Origin: Pseudomonadota bacterium
GTDB taxonomy: Bacteria; Pseudomonadota; Gammaproteobacteria; Steroidobacterales; Woeseiaceae
Reading direction: 5' to 3'
Length of the DNA stretch: 64,000 nucleotides
Assembly (NCBI GenBank): GCA_022572185.1
Contig: JACZWL010000013.1
Location: 1-64,000, forward strand
In this document: piece after piece, positions 4,892 through 45,253 of the stretch
Layout of the letters: the number at the start of each line of letters is the position of its first letter
Position numbering within the stretch: position 1 is the stretch's first letter
The notes under the pieces: model-generated
What the model was told of the DNA's origin: nothing
Databases searched by the model: none
Seen by the model: only the letters and a program-made list of their open reading frames with translations
Program-made: the position numbers and the translations under genes

Positions 4892-5683
4892 ATGCTCAAG
4901 CTACGCGTATTGACGGCGGTTATCGCCCTGGGCGCGCTCCTCGTCGTGCTGTTCGTGTTGCCGCCCGTGATCACACAGCTTGTGTTTGCTGCACTGATTC
5001 TCGCCGGCGCCTGGGAATGGTCAGGTTTTCTGCAACCCGAAAAAGCCGCGGTGCGGCTTGCCTACGTCGGCCTGATAGCGGCGCTCCTGGCTGCTGCCTC
5101 TGTCGGTCTGGCCAATGAATTCGCTGTCGGAGTCGTTTTGAAAATTGCGCTCGCCTGGTGGCTGATTGCGCTGTTTTGGGTGTTTGTGTTTCCGACGCCG
5201 ATACCGAAGTTGGCAGGCTGGATATGCGGTGTGCTCGTCCTGATTCCGGCATACCTTGCAATCATGTCACTGTACTCGCTGCAACCGGCACTGTTGTTGT
5301 TCGTCCTTATTATTGTGTGGGTAGCAGATATCGGCGCCTATTTCACGGGTAAGCGCTTTGGCAAAGTTAAACTGGCGCCGAAGATCAGTCCGGGAAAAAC
5401 ATGGGAAGGCGTGTTCGGTGGCTTGTTGGCGGTTGCCGTACTGGCGTTGGTCCGGGCACGCTGGCTGGAGATCGATATCGTTGTATTGCTGCCGTTTTGC
5501 CTCGCCGTCGCCATAATCTCGATCGTTGGTGACCTTACGGTGAGCATGTTTAAAAGGAATGCCGGTGTAAAAGACAGCGGCCGGCTTTTTCCGGGGCACG
5601 GCGGCGTACTCGACCGAATCGATAGCGTGACAGCCGCAGCACCGTTGTTTGCGCTCGGCATCGGCTGGGTGGGGTTGAGATAA
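4892..5683 (+). CDS. cdsA: Phosphatidate cytidylyltransferase
   Basis: Inner-membrane enzyme that makes CDP-diacylglycerol from phosphatidate and CTP, the entry to phospholipid synthesis. The 263-residue protein is built of hydrophobic segments throughout. Its C-terminal CDP-DAG synthase signature is present: SMFKRNAGVKDSG then PGHGGVLDRIDS. The ATG at 4892 is one base after the uppS stop, so translation is probably coupled. Its stop TAA (5681-5683) shares a base with the ATG of the following small ORF. Confidence 0.95.
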   Translation: MLKLRVLTAVIALGALLVVLFVLPPVITQLVFAALILAGAWEWSGFLQPEKAAVRLAYVGLIAALLAAASVGLANEFAVGVVLKIALAWWLIALFWVFVFPTPIPKLAGWICGVLVLIPAYLAIMSLYSLQPALLLFVLIIVWVADIGAYFTGKRFGKVKLAPKISPGKTWEGVFGGLLAVAVLALVRARWLEIDIVVLLPFCLAVAIISIVGDLTVSMFKRNAGVKDSGRLFPGHGGVLDRIDSVTAAAPLFALGIGWVGLR

Positions 5684-5841
5684 TGGCTGCCGGAATTCAG
5701 TTCCCGTTCATTTACCGGGATCTAAGCTGCACGGGTCATTCGGCCCTGGCGGGAACTGCGCCTCATACAGCCGGTCGACAGCTTGTAGCGACACAAGATG
5801 TCCGATCACATCGAAGGGCACGGAGAATGGTTCGTCTATGA
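5683..5841 (+). pseudogene. 52-codon ORF, probable C-terminal remnant of dxr
   Basis: An ATG at 5683 overlaps the cdsA stop (TAATG). The 52-residue frame ends in a TGA at 5839-5841 that overlaps the rseP ATG (ATGA). This is exactly where dxr (DXP reductoisomerase, ~390-400 residues) lies in the conserved cdsA-dxr-rseP-bamA order. The translation begins MAAGIQFPFIYRDL and ends RSHRRARRMVRL. That resembles the last ~50 residues of DXR as I recall them (an IRF..I motif, then a D...AR..ARKEVMRL-type helix). The similarity is modest and the catalytic and NADPH domains are absent. My reading is an in-frame internal deletion that kept both translational couplings. It could also be an unrelated small protein. 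Confidence 0.5.
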
Positions 5842-7172
5842 GCGCTGCACTGATCAACTTAATCGCATTCATTGTCGCGATCAGCGTACTGGTCGCCGTG
5901 CACGAGTTTGGCCACTACATTGTGGGACGCTGCTGCGGGATGAAGGTACTCAGGTTCTCGATCGGCTTCGGCAAGCCGCTATGGACCTGGATCGCCGGAG
6001 AGGATCGCACCGAATACTGTATTTCAGCGATCCCGCTCGGGGGTTATGTCAAGTTTCTGGACGAGAGAGAAGGGCCCGTCGATCCAGCCGACCAGGGACG
6101 GGCATTCAATCATCGGCCCATTCCGGCGCGGATCGCGGTTCTGCTCGCAGGGCCGGCATTCAATTTTCTTTTTGCCCTGATCGCTTACTGGGTATTGTCC
6201 ATGCAGGGCCTGCCCACTTTGCGTCCTGTCATCGGACCGGTCGAGCCTGATTCCTACGCCGCCGAGGCCGGATTACTGCCTGAAGAGCTGCTGGTGGCGG
6301 TCGGCGATCAAGCTGTCGATAACTGGGGTACTGCATTGTTGTCGATCCTGGACGAGATGGTCGCAACGGGACAGGTTCCACTCGTCGTGCAAGACAACGA
6401 AGGCGATGAGCGCAGGGTGACAATCCATGTGGGCGACGATCGCACACGCCTCACGGAGCCGGGAGAGCTGTTGACCGGGCTCGGGTTCATGCCGGGACAA
6501 CCGCTGGCAATTGCCGAGTGGGTTGAAGCAGGTGCTGCAGCGGACCGGGCCGGAATACGTCCCGGGGACAGGATCATCAGCGTCAACGGCGAGAGCACGG
6601 TGACATTCGGTGATTTGGCGGCTGTCATCGTCGAGCTGCCGGACAGGACCGTACCGATCAGGATCGTAAGGGACGGCCGGCAAGAGACCCTTTACGTCGA
6701 TATCGCTGCCGTGGCAACCGCTGACGGCGTCGTCGGCCGAATCGGTGTCAGCCCGCGATTTCTGCGACAATTCGGAGCGCTCGCGGCAATCGGCGAATCA
6801 TTTTCACGCACTGGACGTGAGACGGCCTTTACGGTTCGCATGTTGTGGCACATGGTGACCGGCCAGGTTTCGATCAAGAACATCAGCGGGCCGATCAGCA
6901 TTGCGAAGTATGTCGGCGATTCTGCGCGGGCAGGGTTTTCATATGTGTTGACCGTACTTGCCCTGATCAGTATCAGCCTGGGCGTATTGAACCTGTTGCC
7001 GATTCCGATTCTGGACGGCGGGCAGATCGTCTACCAGTCGGTAGAGTGGATCAAAGGCAGTCCGATGTCCGACCGGGCGCAGATGCTGGGGCAGCAGGCC
7101 GGTATTCTCGCGATCCTGTTGTTGATGAGTTTCGCTTTTTATAACGACATTGCGCGAATGTTCTCCAGTTGA
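5838..7172 (+). CDS. rseP: RIP metalloprotease RseP (site-2 protease)
   Basis: Inner-membrane zinc protease that cuts RseA within the membrane to release sigma-E, and clears signal-peptide remnants. The zinc motif HEFGH is at residues 22-26 in the first membrane helix. Two PDZ-like domains occupy about 110-320, and the second half of the active site appears as NLLPIPILDGG near residue 390. Length is 444 (E. coli 450). The start overlaps the preceding 52-codon frame by ATGA. Its substrate gene rseA is at 43167. Confidence 0.96.
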   Translation: MSAALINLIAFIVAISVLVAVHEFGHYIVGRCCGMKVLRFSIGFGKPLWTWIAGEDRTEYCISAIPLGGYVKFLDEREGPVDPADQGRAFNHRPIPARIAVLLAGPAFNFLFALIAYWVLSMQGLPTLRPVIGPVEPDSYAAEAGLLPEELLVAVGDQAVDNWGTALLSILDEMVATGQVPLVVQDNEGDERRVTIHVGDDRTRLTEPGELLTGLGFMPGQPLAIAEWVEAGAAADRAGIRPGDRIISVNGESTVTFGDLAAVIVELPDRTVPIRIVRDGRQETLYVDIAAVATADGVVGRIGVSPRFLRQFGALAAIGESFSRTGRETAFTVRMLWHMVTGQVSIKNISGPISIAKYVGDSARAGFSYVLTVLALISISLGVLNLLPIPILDGGQIVYQSVEWIKGSPMSDRAQMLGQQAGILAILLLMSFAFYNDIARMFSS

Positions 7173-7201: not shown

Positions 7202-9619
7202 ATGAGGCACTGGCAAAACAAGAGACAGGGAGTTCGATTCTGGCAGCGGCTGCCGGCAGTCATCGCCGTTGCCTGTCTGACCTTGCCGGTCGCAGCCCTG
7301 GCCGTTGATTTTGTCGTGCGTGACATGCGTGTCGAAGGCCTGCAACGTATTTCCGAGGGCACGGTTTTCAACTATCTGCCAATTAATGTCGGCGATACGG
7401 TCGACGACATCAGGATTCAGGAGGCAATGCGGGCGCTTTATTCGCAGCAGCTGTTTGACGACATCGAGATGCGACGTGACGGAGACACACTGATCATAGC
7501 GGTTAAGGAACGTCCATCTATCGAAGACTTCACGATTGAGGGCAACAAGGACATCAAGACCGAAGATCTCATGGAATCGCTGCGTGGGGTGGGTCTGGCA
7601 CGTGGCCGGACCTTTGACCGTTCGGTCCTGGACGAAGTTCAGCAATTCCTGAAGGAACAGTACTACGACCGCGGCAAATACGCTGTGGTCGTCAATACCG
7701 ATGTGATGGATCGGCCGAATAACACGGTCCGGGTCAGCATCGAGGTCAAGGAGGGAGAGCGGGCGAAGATACGTCAGGTCAATATCATCGGTAATCGCAG
7801 TTTCGACGAAAAGACAATCCGCGAAGACTTTGAACTGGACACGGCGAACTGGTTGTCGTGGATCCGACAGGACGATCGCTATGCCAAGGAGTCCCTGGGC
7901 GGCGATCTTGAGACCCTTCGCTCCTTCTATATGGACCGTGGTTACGCGGACTTTCGAATCGAATCAACGCAGGTCGCGATTTCCCCGAACAAGAAAGACA
8001 TTTATGTCACGATTAACCTGCACGAGGGAGAGCAGTACAAGATTTCCGACACGAAAGTTGTCGGCAAGATGGTGATACCGGAAGAGCAGCTCAGCGGTCT
8101 CATTCTCGCGAAACCGGGTTCGACGTTCAACCTGCAGCTACTCACTCAGTCAATGGAGCTGATGGAGTTCCGTCTCGGCGAACAAGGGTATTCGAATGCT
8201 GAGATCGAACCGGTGCCGGAACTCGACCACGAGAAAAAAGAAGCATCGGTAACCTTCTTCGTTGATCCGGGGAGTCGTGTCTACGTTCGACGAATTATTT
8301 TCAAGAATATCGATCAGGTCGACGACGAGGTCTTGCGTCGCGAGATGCGACAGACTGAGGGCGCCTATCTGTCGAATCGCCTGGTCGATCGGTCAAGGAT
8401 ACGATTACAGCGTTTGCCATACATCGAAAAGGTAGAAGTAGAAAACGTCCCCGTGCCCGGTAGTCCGGACCTGGTCGACATCGAATTCGATATCGAATAT
8501 CGCATGCCCGGCCAGTTCAGTGGCGGACTTGGTTTTTCCGAATCGCAAGGGCTGATTTTGAACGGCAGCATCGTGCACACCAATTTTCTCGGCTCGGGAA
8601 ATCGTGTTGCACTTCAGGTGAGTACGGGAAGCTTTTCGACGCTCTACAGCCTGTCACATACAGATCCTTACACGACGCGAAACGGCGTTCGAAGAACCGT
8701 GTCAGTCAATTTTCGAGATATCACGCAATTCACCTCGGCGTCATCCGACTTTTCGACAACAAACATTGGTGCGACGATCGAGTACGGCTATCCGATCACC
8801 GAATACCAATCGTTGAGTCTTGGAATAAGCTTCAATCGTGCCGAACTACTTGCGTCCAGCAGGAGTTCGCAACAGGCCCAGGACTGGGTCCTGAATAACG
8901 GTAACCAGTTCACCGATGAAGTCAGTCCCGGCGTTGTTTTCACCGGGACCGAATTTGACACGTACGAACTGATAGCCGGTTGGAGCTATGACAGCCGCAA
9001 CAGGAGCCTCTTCGCAGACCGGGGTTCCCGCCAGCAGTTATTTTTCTCGTACGCGCTGCCCGGCAGTGGGGTCGAGTACTATACGGTGCGCCACAATTTT
9101 ACGAAATACATTCCGCTTTTCGGTAGATGGACCATACGCCTGAATAGCGAACTGGGTTTTGGCGAGGCGCTGGGCGATACGACCGCGCTGCCGCCGTATA
9201 AGCAGTTCTTCAGCGGCGGGCCGCAGTCGGTTCGCGGCTACAAAGAGTCCTGGCTGGGCCCGCGCGACAGCTTCGGGAACCCCTATGGCGGCAATGTGTT
9301 GGTCGCCGGTCAAGTAGAGCTTATAATCCCCCTTCCGGCTAAATTGAGCGGCAGCACGCGAGCCAGTATTTTCTATGATATCGGTAACGTATTTAATTCC
9401 GGTGAGGTCGAATTCACCGATAAACTGGGTGCTCCGATTTCTTATAAACCGGATTTCAATGAGTTGAAGACATCCGTCGGTGTGGCGGTTCAGTGGCTGG
9501 CGCCCATGGGACTTTTTCGATTCAGTTATGCGGTGCCGCTCAACGAGTTCAAAGGCAACGACAGATTCTACGGAGACGTGGTAGAAGGTTTTCAGTTCTC
9601 CATTGGTCAGGCGTTTTAA
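7202..9619 (+). CDS. bamA: Outer membrane protein assembly factor BamA
   Basis: Central beta-barrel of the BAM complex, which inserts outer-membrane proteins. The ATG at 7202 is preceded by CAAGGC and begins a signal peptide (basic MRHWQNKRQG, hydrophobic core, cleavage near VAALA-VDF), so I prefer it to the TTG at 7169. Five POTRA repeats follow (~residues 24-420), then the Omp85 barrel with the lid-lock region GGPQSVRGYKESWLGPRD and a terminal Phe (QFSIGQAF). Length is 805 residues, typical of the family. The gene sits between rseP and skp as expected. Confidence 0.96.
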   Translation: MRHWQNKRQGVRFWQRLPAVIAVACLTLPVAALAVDFVVRDMRVEGLQRISEGTVFNYLPINVGDTVDDIRIQEAMRALYSQQLFDDIEMRRDGDTLIIAVKERPSIEDFTIEGNKDIKTEDLMESLRGVGLARGRTFDRSVLDEVQQFLKEQYYDRGKYAVVVNTDVMDRPNNTVRVSIEVKEGERAKIRQVNIIGNRSFDEKTIREDFELDTANWLSWIRQDDRYAKESLGGDLETLRSFYMDRGYADFRIESTQVAISPNKKDIYVTINLHEGEQYKISDTKVVGKMVIPEEQLSGLILAKPGSTFNLQLLTQSMELMEFRLGEQGYSNAEIEPVPELDHEKKEASVTFFVDPGSRVYVRRIIFKNIDQVDDEVLRREMRQTEGAYLSNRLVDRSRIRLQRLPYIEKVEVENVPVPGSPDLVDIEFDIEYRMPGQFSGGLGFSESQGLILNGSIVHTNFLGSGNRVALQVSTGSFSTLYSLSHTDPYTTRNGVRRTVSVNFRDITQFTSASSDFSTTNIGATIEYGYPITEYQSLSLGISFNRAELLASSRSSQQAQDWVLNNGNQFTDEVSPGVVFTGTEFDTYELIAGWSYDSRNRSLFADRGSRQQLFFSYALPGSGVEYYTVRHNFTKYIPLFGRWTIRLNSELGFGEALGDTTALPPYKQFFSGGPQSVRGYKESWLGPRDSFGNPYGGNVLVAGQVELIIPLPAKLSGSTRASIFYDIGNVFNSGEVEFTDKLGAPISYKPDFNELKTSVGVAVQWLAPMGLFRFSYAVPLNEFKGNDRFYGDVVEGFQFSIGQAF

Positions 9620-42409: not shown

Positions 42410-42480
42410 GCTGATACCATCGCATCCGCAAAACCAGGTCACATTTCTGCAGAAAATGCTTGAAACATGCCGTATTCGGA

Positions 42481-42508
42481 GAACTTTCTAAGCTTGCGCC
42501 AGTCTATT
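42481..42508 (+). promoter_or_regulatory. Candidate sigma-E-dependent promoter of rpoE
   Basis: GAACTT (42481-42486), a 16 bp spacer and TCTATT (42503-42508) match the extracytoplasmic stress consensus (GGAACTT-N15/16-TCTGA-like), 47 bp before the rpoE start. This would give the usual positive autoregulation of the rpoE-rseABC operon. Confidence 0.6.
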
Positions 42509-42554
42509 CGGGAGTCGGTTGACCTCACCAACTCATTGAGTGGGGCCTGCCCGT

Positions 42555-43130
42555 ATGGCGACTAAATCGACTGATGCTCAGCTGGTCCGGCGTGTCCAGA
42601 AGGGTGATAAAGGTGCTTTCGACCTTCTTGTGCTGAAATACCAGCACAGGATTATCAATCTGGTGATGCGTTATGTGCGAGATCCGGACCAGGCTTTGGA
42701 CATTACCCAGGAGGCCTTCCTCAAGGCCTACCGGGCATTGGGCAGGTTCCGTGGCGAGAGCGCATTCTATACCTGGCTTTATCGGATCGCCGTGAATACT
42801 GCAAAGAATTATCTGGCAGCCCAGCGCAGACGTCCGATGGACGTCGAACTGGACCTGCAGGATCCGGAGCAGTTCGAGTTACATGCGAAGCTCAGGGAGA
42901 CGGACACGCCCGAGGGCGTGCTGATGGGTCGTCAGCTGCATGAAACGATCGCACGGGCCATAGAGGCGTTGCCAGACGACTTACGCACGGCGATTGTGCT
43001 ACGTGAACTCGATGGCATGAGTTACGAAGAAATCGCACAGACGATGGATTGTCCGGTCGGTACGGTTCGGTCCCGCATATTTCGTGCGCGGGACGCAATC
43101 GGCAAGAAGATCGGGACTTTGGTTGATTAA
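42555..43130 (+). CDS. rpoE: RNA polymerase sigma-E factor
   Basis: ECF sigma factor for envelope stress. Region 2 reads FDLLVLKYQHRIINLVMRYV, then DITQEAFLKAYRALGRFRGE and FYTWLYRIAVNTAKNYL. Region 4 has ELDGMSYEEIAQTMDCPVGT and VRSRIFRARDAI. The ATG at 42555 gives 191 residues, equal to E. coli RpoE; a GTG at 42540 is an alternative. rseA, rseB and rseC follow in order. Confidence 0.96.
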   Translation: MATKSTDAQLVRRVQKGDKGAFDLLVLKYQHRIINLVMRYVRDPDQALDITQEAFLKAYRALGRFRGESAFYTWLYRIAVNTAKNYLAAQRRRPMDVELDLQDPEQFELHAKLRETDTPEGVLMGRQLHETIARAIEALPDDLRTAIVLRELDGMSYEEIAQTMDCPVGTVRSRIFRARDAIGKKIGTLVD

Positions 43131-43166
43131 TCTGGTATCCGGACACAGATACCATTCAGGTGATTT

Positions 43167-43733
43167 ATGAACGACGCTCTGAAAATGCAGATTTCCGCCT
43201 TCGTTGACGGTGAGCTGCCGGAAAATGAAAGCGAGTTGCTGTTGCGGCGACTGAGTCAGGACGTTTCGCTGCGCCAGCAGGTCGCAGAATATCTCGCTAT
43301 CGGCCGCCTGATGCGCCGGGATCATGATGTGCCCGGCATAAGCGACTTACGCGACCGCATTGCAGCAGCGCTCGGCGAGGAGCCGATTCAGCACCCGGCA
43401 AGAACCGAGGTTTCGCGATCGAAGTTCACACGGCCGGCAATCGGTGCGGCAATTGCTGCATCGGTCGCGGTGCTGGCTTTATTCGCCGTGCAACAGGTGT
43501 ATTCGCCGGATGACAGCGGAATTATTGACACTAATTTTGCGGGCCGCACGGTACCTGATAGTCAAACCGCGGCCGGCCGGCCGGACAATGCACTGCTGAA
43601 GCAGTTGTATCTCCACCATAATCCTCGTCTCGTTACCTGGCAGCTGTGGGATGGTTCCTTTGTGGAAATCGAAGCACAGGATAAGCCGGTGGAGAGTGAT
43701 GACAGAGGGTCTGACGAAGAGAGTCAGGACTAG
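43167..43733 (+). CDS. rseA: Anti-sigma-E factor RseA
   Basis: Inner-membrane anti-sigma factor. The cytoplasmic sigma-binding domain (~1-75) has QISAFVDGELPENESELLL and YLAIGRLMRRD. One membrane helix lies at about 93-111 (AIGAAIAASVAVLALFAVQQ), then a periplasmic tail that binds RseB. It is degraded by DegS and then RseP (gene at 5838). Length is 188. The stop TAG (43731-43733) lies in a palindromic repeat copy. Confidence 0.92.
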   Translation: MNDALKMQISAFVDGELPENESELLLRRLSQDVSLRQQVAEYLAIGRLMRRDHDVPGISDLRDRIAAALGEEPIQHPARTEVSRSKFTRPAIGAAIAASVAVLALFAVQQVYSPDDSGIIDTNFAGRTVPDSQTAAGRPDNALLKQLYLHHNPRLVTWQLWDGSFVEIEAQDKPVESDDRGSDEESQD

Positions 43734-43762
43734 TGGTCCAACGAGGCTATATTGATGGACCT
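43732..43762 (+). repeat. Dispersed TGGTCCAACAAGG palindrome, copy C
   Basis: AGTGGTCCAACGAGG followed by CTATATTGATGGACCT. It begins inside the rseA stop codon and runs into the region of possible rseB starts (TTG 43752, ATG 43755). Confidence 0.75.
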
Positions 43763-43784
43763 CTCGTTGCCAGGCTTGCACATC

Positions 43785-44765
43785 ATGCAGATGAATAACA
43801 CGACAAGAACTTCTGCGTTTTCATCGCTGCTGACGATCGGGGTCTTGCTTTCATCGCATTCGGCAATCGCGCTTGCCGCTGACGGGCCGAATGAGTGGCT
43901 TGGCCGCATGTCGAATGCGGTGCAGAACATGAGTTACGAAGGCACAGTAATTCGAACAAGACGCGGTGAAGCAGAAACGCTGAAAGTTGTACGCAGCGTA
44001 GAGGACGGTGTTGTCAGCGAAAAATTGACTCTCCAGGAGGGCAGTAGCCTGGAGATCATTCGCAAGGGCGACGAGGTGCATTGCATTCTGCCGGACTCGA
44101 AGTCGGTGCTGGTCGAGAGTTGGGATAATCAGAGCACCCTGTTTTCGACGCTACCCGGCAGGGACATCAGGTTTGGAAGCGAATACGACCTGTCGATCGT
44201 CCGCGAGGATCGGGTCGCTGGCCGTAAGGCTGTGCTGCTGGCAATCCGGCCTCACGATGAATTCCGTTTCGGTCATCGATTATGGCTGGATCGTAGTACG
44301 GCGTTTCCCCTGCGGACAGAGCTGATCGATGGCGATGGCACTATTCTCGAGCAAATCAAGTTTGCAGATATAAACCTGGATGCCAAAATTTCGGTGGAGG
44401 CTTTCTCGCCATCGGTGAGCCTGGAAAATTTCACCTGGTATGCGGAGACCGTAAAGCGGGTGGAGGTTGAGGTCAAAATCGATTGGGCTTGTGACGGTCT
44501 TCCTCCCGGGTTCCGCGTCGTTTCAACGAAGACCGAGCAACTGCCGGGCGCAGATGCACCGGTGACGCACATTCTTTACAGCGATGGTCTCGCCACCGTG
44601 TCGGTATTCATCGGCCAGGTACACAAAGGGAAGCTGGCCCGGCGATCCAATATTGGGGGGTCCAACGCCTATAGCATGCAACTGGCCAATTATCAGATTA
44701 CGGCAATCGGTGAAGTACCCGCAGTAACCGTTCAACGCATTGCCAGCTCGATGCGCCAACGATAG
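43785..44765 (+). CDS. rseB: Periplasmic sigma-E regulator RseB
   Basis: Periplasmic protein that binds RseA and protects it until lipopolysaccharide and misfolded porins are sensed. A signal peptide ends near AIALAA-DGP. The N-terminal LolA-like domain has WLGRMSNAVQNMSYEGTVI and the C-terminal domain VTHILYSDGLATVSVFI. I choose the ATG at 43785 (326 residues). Starts at 43752, 43755 and 43791 are possible, because a repeat copy blurs the leader. Confidence 0.9.
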   Translation: MQMNNTTRTSAFSSLLTIGVLLSSHSAIALAADGPNEWLGRMSNAVQNMSYEGTVIRTRRGEAETLKVVRSVEDGVVSEKLTLQEGSSLEIIRKGDEVHCILPDSKSVLVESWDNQSTLFSTLPGRDIRFGSEYDLSIVREDRVAGRKAVLLAIRPHDEFRFGHRLWLDRSTAFPLRTELIDGDGTILEQIKFADINLDAKISVEAFSPSVSLENFTWYAETVKRVEVEVKIDWACDGLPPGFRVVSTKTEQLPGADAPVTHILYSDGLATVSVFIGQVHKGKLARRSNIGGSNAYSMQLANYQITAIGEVPAVTVQRIASSMRQR

Positions 44766-44815
44766 CCCGCAGGACTTTGCCTGGCGGCTGCTTTCCTGTT
44801 ACTGATATAGAGGAT

Positions 44816-45253
44816 ATGGACTCACCTGTTGGCAGGATTGTTTCTGTCGCGCCGGGACATGCGACCGTGATGGTGGATGCCGCTCTGGTCTGCGCGCGCT
44901 GCGCTGCGGGAAAAGGTTGTGGCGCCGGATTACTCACGGGCGCCAGCCGCTCACGACTGATCGACGTAAGCGTAACGCCCGGCATGGACCTGAAACCTGG
45001 CGACGACGTTAGACTGACATTAGCGCCCTCTCATCTGCTGCGCGCCGCAGTTCTTGCTTACGGAATGCCGTTGGCTGGTGTCATCATCGCGCTCGGCATT
45101 GCGTGGATGATGAGCAGAACATTGAACGACGTTCTTGCGGTAACTCTCGCGATTTGTGGTCTGGTCGCGGGCGCGCTTTTTGGCCGGCATTTTCTCAATC
45201 AGGACGACTGTCTTAAAAACCTCGTGCCAACGGTGTCTGAACGTAATGCCTGA
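44816..45253 (+). CDS. rseC: SoxR-reducing/sigma-E regulator RseC
   Basis: Inner-membrane protein of the RseC/MucC family. The Cys-rich cytoplasmic N-terminus has ALVCARCAAGKGCGAG (C-x2-C-x5-C). Two membrane helices (RAAVLAYGMPLAGVIIALGI and VLAVTLAICGLVAGALF) follow. Length is 145 from the ATG at 44816; a TTG at 44777 is possible. The stop overlaps the next gene by 8 bp. Confidence 0.88.
   Translation: MDSPVGRIVSVAPGHATVMVDAALVCARCAAGKGCGAGLLTGASRSRLIDVSVTPGMDLKPGDDVRLTLAPSHLLRAAVLAYGMPLAGVIIALGIAWMMSRTLNDVLAVTLAICGLVAGALFGRHFLNQDDCLKNLVPTVSERNA

Follow-up and report, generated by a model that had tools for sequence, protein, structure and literature searches.

In E. coli, cdsA abuts rseP and dxr sits upstream of ispU; the sigma-E-like match of this region in E. 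coli K-12 is located inside rseP, ahead of bamA. Promoters of sigma-E carry the consensus GGAACTT and TCAAA (PMC4890791). In architecture I of the PhoP box, a hexamer repeat separated by five nucleotides is placed 12 nt from the -10 element (PMC3335776). In other families of the order that contains the Woeseiaceae, full-length dxr (TIGR00243) was found in 10 genomes, all with the arrangement cdsA-dxr-rseP. In dxr-bearing relatives, dxr overlaps both neighbours, with ATGA or TGATG at the cdsA end and ATGA at the rseP end. The order cdsA-dxr-rseP-bamA, described as conserved in an earlier note on this DNA, holds for related families but not for E. coli.

The window analysed here is the whole stretch of 64,000 nucleotides from a genome 3.14 Mb in size and divided into 99 contigs; the named genomes nearest to it are Woeseiaceae. 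As the earlier note described, the slot that dxr occupies in relatives holds a 52-codon frame (5683-5841) whose ATG lies within the cdsA stop (TAATG) and whose end lies within the rseP start (ATGA). The likely reading, drawn from comparison of sequences across the family, is that a translational bridge has taken the place of dxr and that two envelope-stress promoters for rseP-bamA lie within it. The features concerned are collected in Table 1. No Rfam match was found on 5400-6200, and the predicted RNA fold of the junction shows no structure (z = -0.19).

Table 1. Features of the cdsA-rseP junction, its neighbours and the rpoE cluster (window coordinates).
Feature	Position	Strand	Basis
cdsA, phosphatidate cytidylyltransferase, upstream gene	4892..5683	+	Pfam PF01148 E 9.8e-55; NCBIfam NF008635 is the best match
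Bridge ORF, 52 codons, former dxr slot; overlaps cdsA stop and rseP start	5683..5841	+	Open frame in 90 distinct family junctions; without DXR similarity
PhoP-box-like direct repeat TTCAGTTCCCGTTCA, 11-bp period	5696..5710	+	TTCA-N7-TTCA recurrence across family intergenics
-10-like TAAGCT, 12 nt 3' of the direct repeat	5723..5728	+	YANNNT at offset 12 in 56/61 aligned junctions
Putative sigma-E -35 element GGAACT	5752..5757	+	GGAACY in 62/73 intergenics
Putative sigma-E -10 element TCGACA, 17 nt after GGAACT	5775..5780	+	TC at matching spacing in at least 61/62 aligned junctions
rseP, site-2 protease activating sigma-E	5838..7172	+	TIGR00054 339.7 bits vs cut-off 147.6
bamA, outer-membrane assembly factor, next gene	7202..9619	+	ORF; homologue after rseP in relatives; named from position and operon order
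Putative sigma-E promoter of rpoE, AGAACT-N17-TCTATT	42480..42508	+	Spacing equals that of the rseP element
rpoE (sigma-E)	42540..43130	+	TIGR02939 299.8 bits vs cut-off 236.2
rseA-like anti-sigma factor and rseB	43167..44765	+	NF052375 and NF008116 weak; NF006990 142.9 bits

Loss of dxr and presence of the mevalonate pathway

A full dxr is missing, as the earlier note had stated: no copy was found between cdsA and rseP, between frr and uppS, or elsewhere in the genome. With TIGR00243, dxr is absent from all 37 Woeseiaceae genomes, apart from one sub-threshold match of 18.6 bits, and ispG is likewise absent from the 37 searched. HMG-CoA reductase is present in 35 of the 37; the two genomes without it are incomplete. 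In the source genome, one cluster (L100) encodes HMG-CoA synthase, MvaD, a phosphomevalonate-kinase-like GHMP kinase, an HMGR-mevalonate kinase fusion, the IPP isomerase Idi and a divergent FPP synthase. Judged from gene content, the loss of dxr is not a metabolic gap, since dxr and ispG are missing family-wide and a mevalonate pathway is present. Woeseiaceae are accordingly predicted to be insensitive to DXR inhibitors such as fosmidomycin.

The fusion of HMG-CoA reductase and mevalonate kinase occupies a single ORF of 746 aa (L100:8471-10711, contig 22). Across the order, almost every genome without dxr has a long HMGR ORF, mostly of about 750 aa; where dxr is present, the ORF measures about 390-450 aa. 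A second HMG-CoA reductase gene, of the NADP type, is located on contig 58 (L101:7193-8473). The only match obtained for DXS is a transketolase, which was rejected as a candidate. The DRL-type reductase model (PF21135) gave no match in the source genome, but none in the control genomes either, so this negative is uninformative. Among titles and abstracts, nothing relevant was found on Woeseiaceae together with mevalonate or isoprenoid.

Relationship of the 52-residue peptide to DXR

The 52-codon frame had been taken for a remnant of the DXR C-terminus. A profile built from 67 DXR proteins of related loci, which recognises the last 52 residues of real DXRs at E<1 in 66 of the 67, gives the peptide -1.6 bits, a score matched or bettered by 356 of 1000 shuffles. 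The DXR profile and BLAST, applied to the peptide and to all family junctions in six frames, yielded no convincing match, and a Pfam search of the peptide returned nothing. The earlier note had made its sequence claim depend on a significant DXR profile match, and with this score and the six-frame negatives, a DXR remnant detectable by sequence similarity is ruled out. By position, the case is different: slot, frame and both overlaps equal those of dxr in relatives. An in-frame internal deletion that left both ends, as proposed in the earlier note, is a plausible and the simplest history, because the dxr-bearing relatives show the same overlaps; the sequence itself retains no trace that would prove it.

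Two promoter-like elements in the junction

The first element (P1) is a direct repeat followed by a -10-like element. TTCA-N7-TTCA occurs in 61 of 73 distinct intergenics, with a shuffle mean of 0.15. In the alignment on this repeat, YANNNT lies at offset 12 in 56 of the 61 and at any other offset in two at most, and the A and T of the -10-like element are invariant in all 61. Across the family, 82 of 90 junctions contain the repeat with A...T exactly 12 nt downstream; in the dxr-bearing relatives, the direct repeat precedes rseP in 0/67. P1 shares with PhoP-box architecture I the 11-bp period, the five-nt separation and the 12-nt distance to the -10, but its half-site is (G/A)TTCA instead of (T/G)GTTTA.

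Across the source genome, the box with a -10 occurs at 8 sites versus 0 for the reversed pattern, and a stricter box pattern at 77 sites versus 6 for the control, summed over 19 family genomes. The sites in the source genome precede degP/htrA, the gene of a glycine-zipper exported protein, a lipoprotein and other exported proteins. The operon of this box-preceded glycine-zipper gene continues into a PhoP-like regulator, for which PhoP is the best NCBIfam model at 247.6, below the equivalog cut-off of 336, and a PhoQ-like kinase, for which PhoQ is the best model, also below its cut-off. P1 is read as an OmpR-family box, probably that of a PhoP-like regulator, and the regulator of this operon may bind it. 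Among titles and abstracts, nothing relevant was found on a PhoP box together with rseP.

The second element (P2) fits sigma-E promoters. GGAACY is present in 62 of 73 distinct intergenics (shuffle mean 3.6), and of the 62 junctions aligned on GGAAC, at least 61 have a TC at one and the same distance downstream. The complete pattern GGAACY-N16-18-TC is found in 83/90 family junctions; sigma-E-like matches are found in 5/67 dxr-bearing relatives. The rseP junction thus carries a GGAACTT-type -35, a TC-type -10 and a spacer near 16-17, and the genome encodes sigma-E with its regulators, with rpoE above the profile cut-off and rseA-like and rseB genes adjoining. Upstream of rpoE itself, AGAACT-N17-TCTATT shares the spacing of the rseP element. 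The rpoE-rseA-rseB-rseC cluster lies within the window at 42540-45253, and its RseA-like protein resembles known RseA only weakly.

Both motifs occur together in 81 of the 90 junctions, and the motif positions outside those that selected the alignment are invariant or nearly so. In 67 of these 81, the distance between the two elements is either 37-38 or 48-49 bp, two common spacings separated by one helical turn. The earlier reading of the junction was right that dxr is gone and that a short frame occupies its slot, but it missed the promoter elements, which would explain the present role of this DNA.

The region upstream of degP/htrA (L182:1040-1185, contig 24 of the source genome) combines a PhoP-like box (-72) with a GGAACT-N18-TC match (-145), the rseP pair in reverse order. 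In one streamlined genus with genomes of 1.1-2.0 Mb (L153-L159, L259, L260), the junction is 23-35 nt long, without either element. In other dxr-less families of the order (L215-L226), GGAACC-N17-18-TC is present in 7 of 12 junctions, without the direct repeat and with no consistently open frame.

Conservation of the open frame and alternative explanations

The frame was compared across 90 distinct Woeseiaceae junctions, in which it is preserved more than expected by chance; all P-values ignore relatedness. At the upstream end, an ATG occupies the TGATG/TAATG position in 44/90 junctions, and at most 5 have one at the next in-frame positions. Later in-frame positions served as the control for the start, the +1 frame being unusable as no overlap start is possible there by construction. 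Outside the motifs, stop codons amount to 29/2496 (1.2%) in the bridge frame versus 134/2583 (5.2%) and 97/2659 (3.6%) in the others, a depletion with a Fisher P of about 1e-15, relatedness ignored. At the downstream end, termination falls within -5 to +5 of the rseP start in 76/90 junctions, so that the upstream frame terminates at the downstream start, as in translational coupling. A stop at +5 to +7 of rseP is present in 45 of the 50 junctions whose phase places these positions in the bridge frame and in 11 of the 40 others (P about 8e-10, relatedness ignored). The GGAAC motif falls in one frame in 72/83, and an internal stop, mostly near rseP, interrupts the bridge frame in 21/90. Because the junctions have diverged strongly except in the motifs, common descent by itself is unlikely to account for one frame staying open.

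The frame and overlaps shared with dxr in relatives could also mean that a decayed dxr remnant persists without a present role, its overlaps left over from an in-frame deletion. This is unlikely: no junction resembles DXR in any of the six frames, and the depletion of stop codons already weakened the idea, as neutral decay would not keep the frame open and its end tracking the rseP start despite the divergence. Conservation in the junction is strongest in the promoter motifs, and the two promoters alone might matter, with the frame left open as a consequence of base composition and of where the motifs lie. We regard this as quite unlikely, since the depletion of stops outside the motifs is confined to the bridge frame, and a bridge-frame stop is found at the rseP start when the phase needs one.

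A functional small protein acting in trans, for instance on RseP or BamA, would agree with a frame that is open family-wide. The peptide is barely conserved, however: its length varies from 12 to 68 codons, differences are spread almost evenly over the three positions of the codon, and apart from residues dictated by the DNA motifs none stands out as conserved. It has no Pfam match, and relative to the ORF the direct repeat is read in either of two frames. Such a protein is very unlikely, although a modest synonymous excess in the bridge frame (0.44 versus 0.31 and 0.24; P 0.013, relatedness ignored) may point to some function of the peptide.

Proposed role of the junction

In the preferred reading, a translational bridge with two embedded promoters, the mevalonate pathway replaced MEP in Woeseiaceae, and dxr was lost from cdsA-dxr-rseP. 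The former slot, now about 55-200 bp, would do two jobs, as coding bridge and as promoter DNA. Ribosomes that finish cdsA would initiate at the TGATG/ATGA overlap and terminate where rseP begins, and this bridging would keep read-through mRNA translated and coupled, with selection acting mainly on the frame being open and weakly on the peptide. Transcripts from P1 and P2 would lack the bridge start codon, so that only mRNA reading through from cdsA could be affected by the coupling. P1 would serve rseP-bamA through an OmpR-family box, probably that of a PhoP-like regulator, with a sigma-70-like -10 placed 12 nt further downstream. P2 would serve the same genes as a sigma-E promoter and form a positive loop, because RseP releases sigma-E, as established for E. 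coli.

The wider claim, that the slot vacated in an essential operon is kept as a frame with almost no sequence requirement and that the same bases form two stress promoters putting RseP under sigma-E and a PhoP-like system, seems to us evenly poised between holding and failing on the present alignments. The Woeseiaceae are abundant in marine sediments, and they are predicted to control the sigma-E-activating protease through sigma-E itself together with a PhoP-like system. The junction would be a natural case of an open frame seemingly selected for openness rather than for a product. Gene finders and first-pass annotation would be led astray by such a frame, which was here taken for a DXR fragment.

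Comparison with known systems

The components are each of a known kind, and what is new is their combination in a vacated gene slot. Like bacterial lineages in which mevalonate replaced MEP, Woeseiaceae lack dxr and ispG and have the mevalonate genes; unlike them, they possess the HMGR-mevalonate kinase fusion and appear to have reused the slot of the lost gene. As in operons coupled translationally by overlapping starts and stops, TGATG and ATGA overlaps lie at both ends of the bridge, but the bridge frame appears to encode no conserved product and spans promoter DNA. P2 resembles the enteric sigma-E (RpoE) promoters in its GGAAC -35, its TC-containing -10, its spacing and its placement upstream of outer-membrane assembly genes, and differs in lying in the cdsA-rseP junction beside a two-component-type box. 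Compared with the architecture I boxes of Salmonella mgtA and phoP (PMC3335776), P1 has the same 11-bp period and the -10 at 12 nt, and a box of this kind also stands upstream of the PhoP/PhoQ-like operon; in Woeseiaceae, however, the half-site is GTTCA instead of the enterobacterial GTTTA, the target is rseP, and the regulator is PhoP-like by profile alone.
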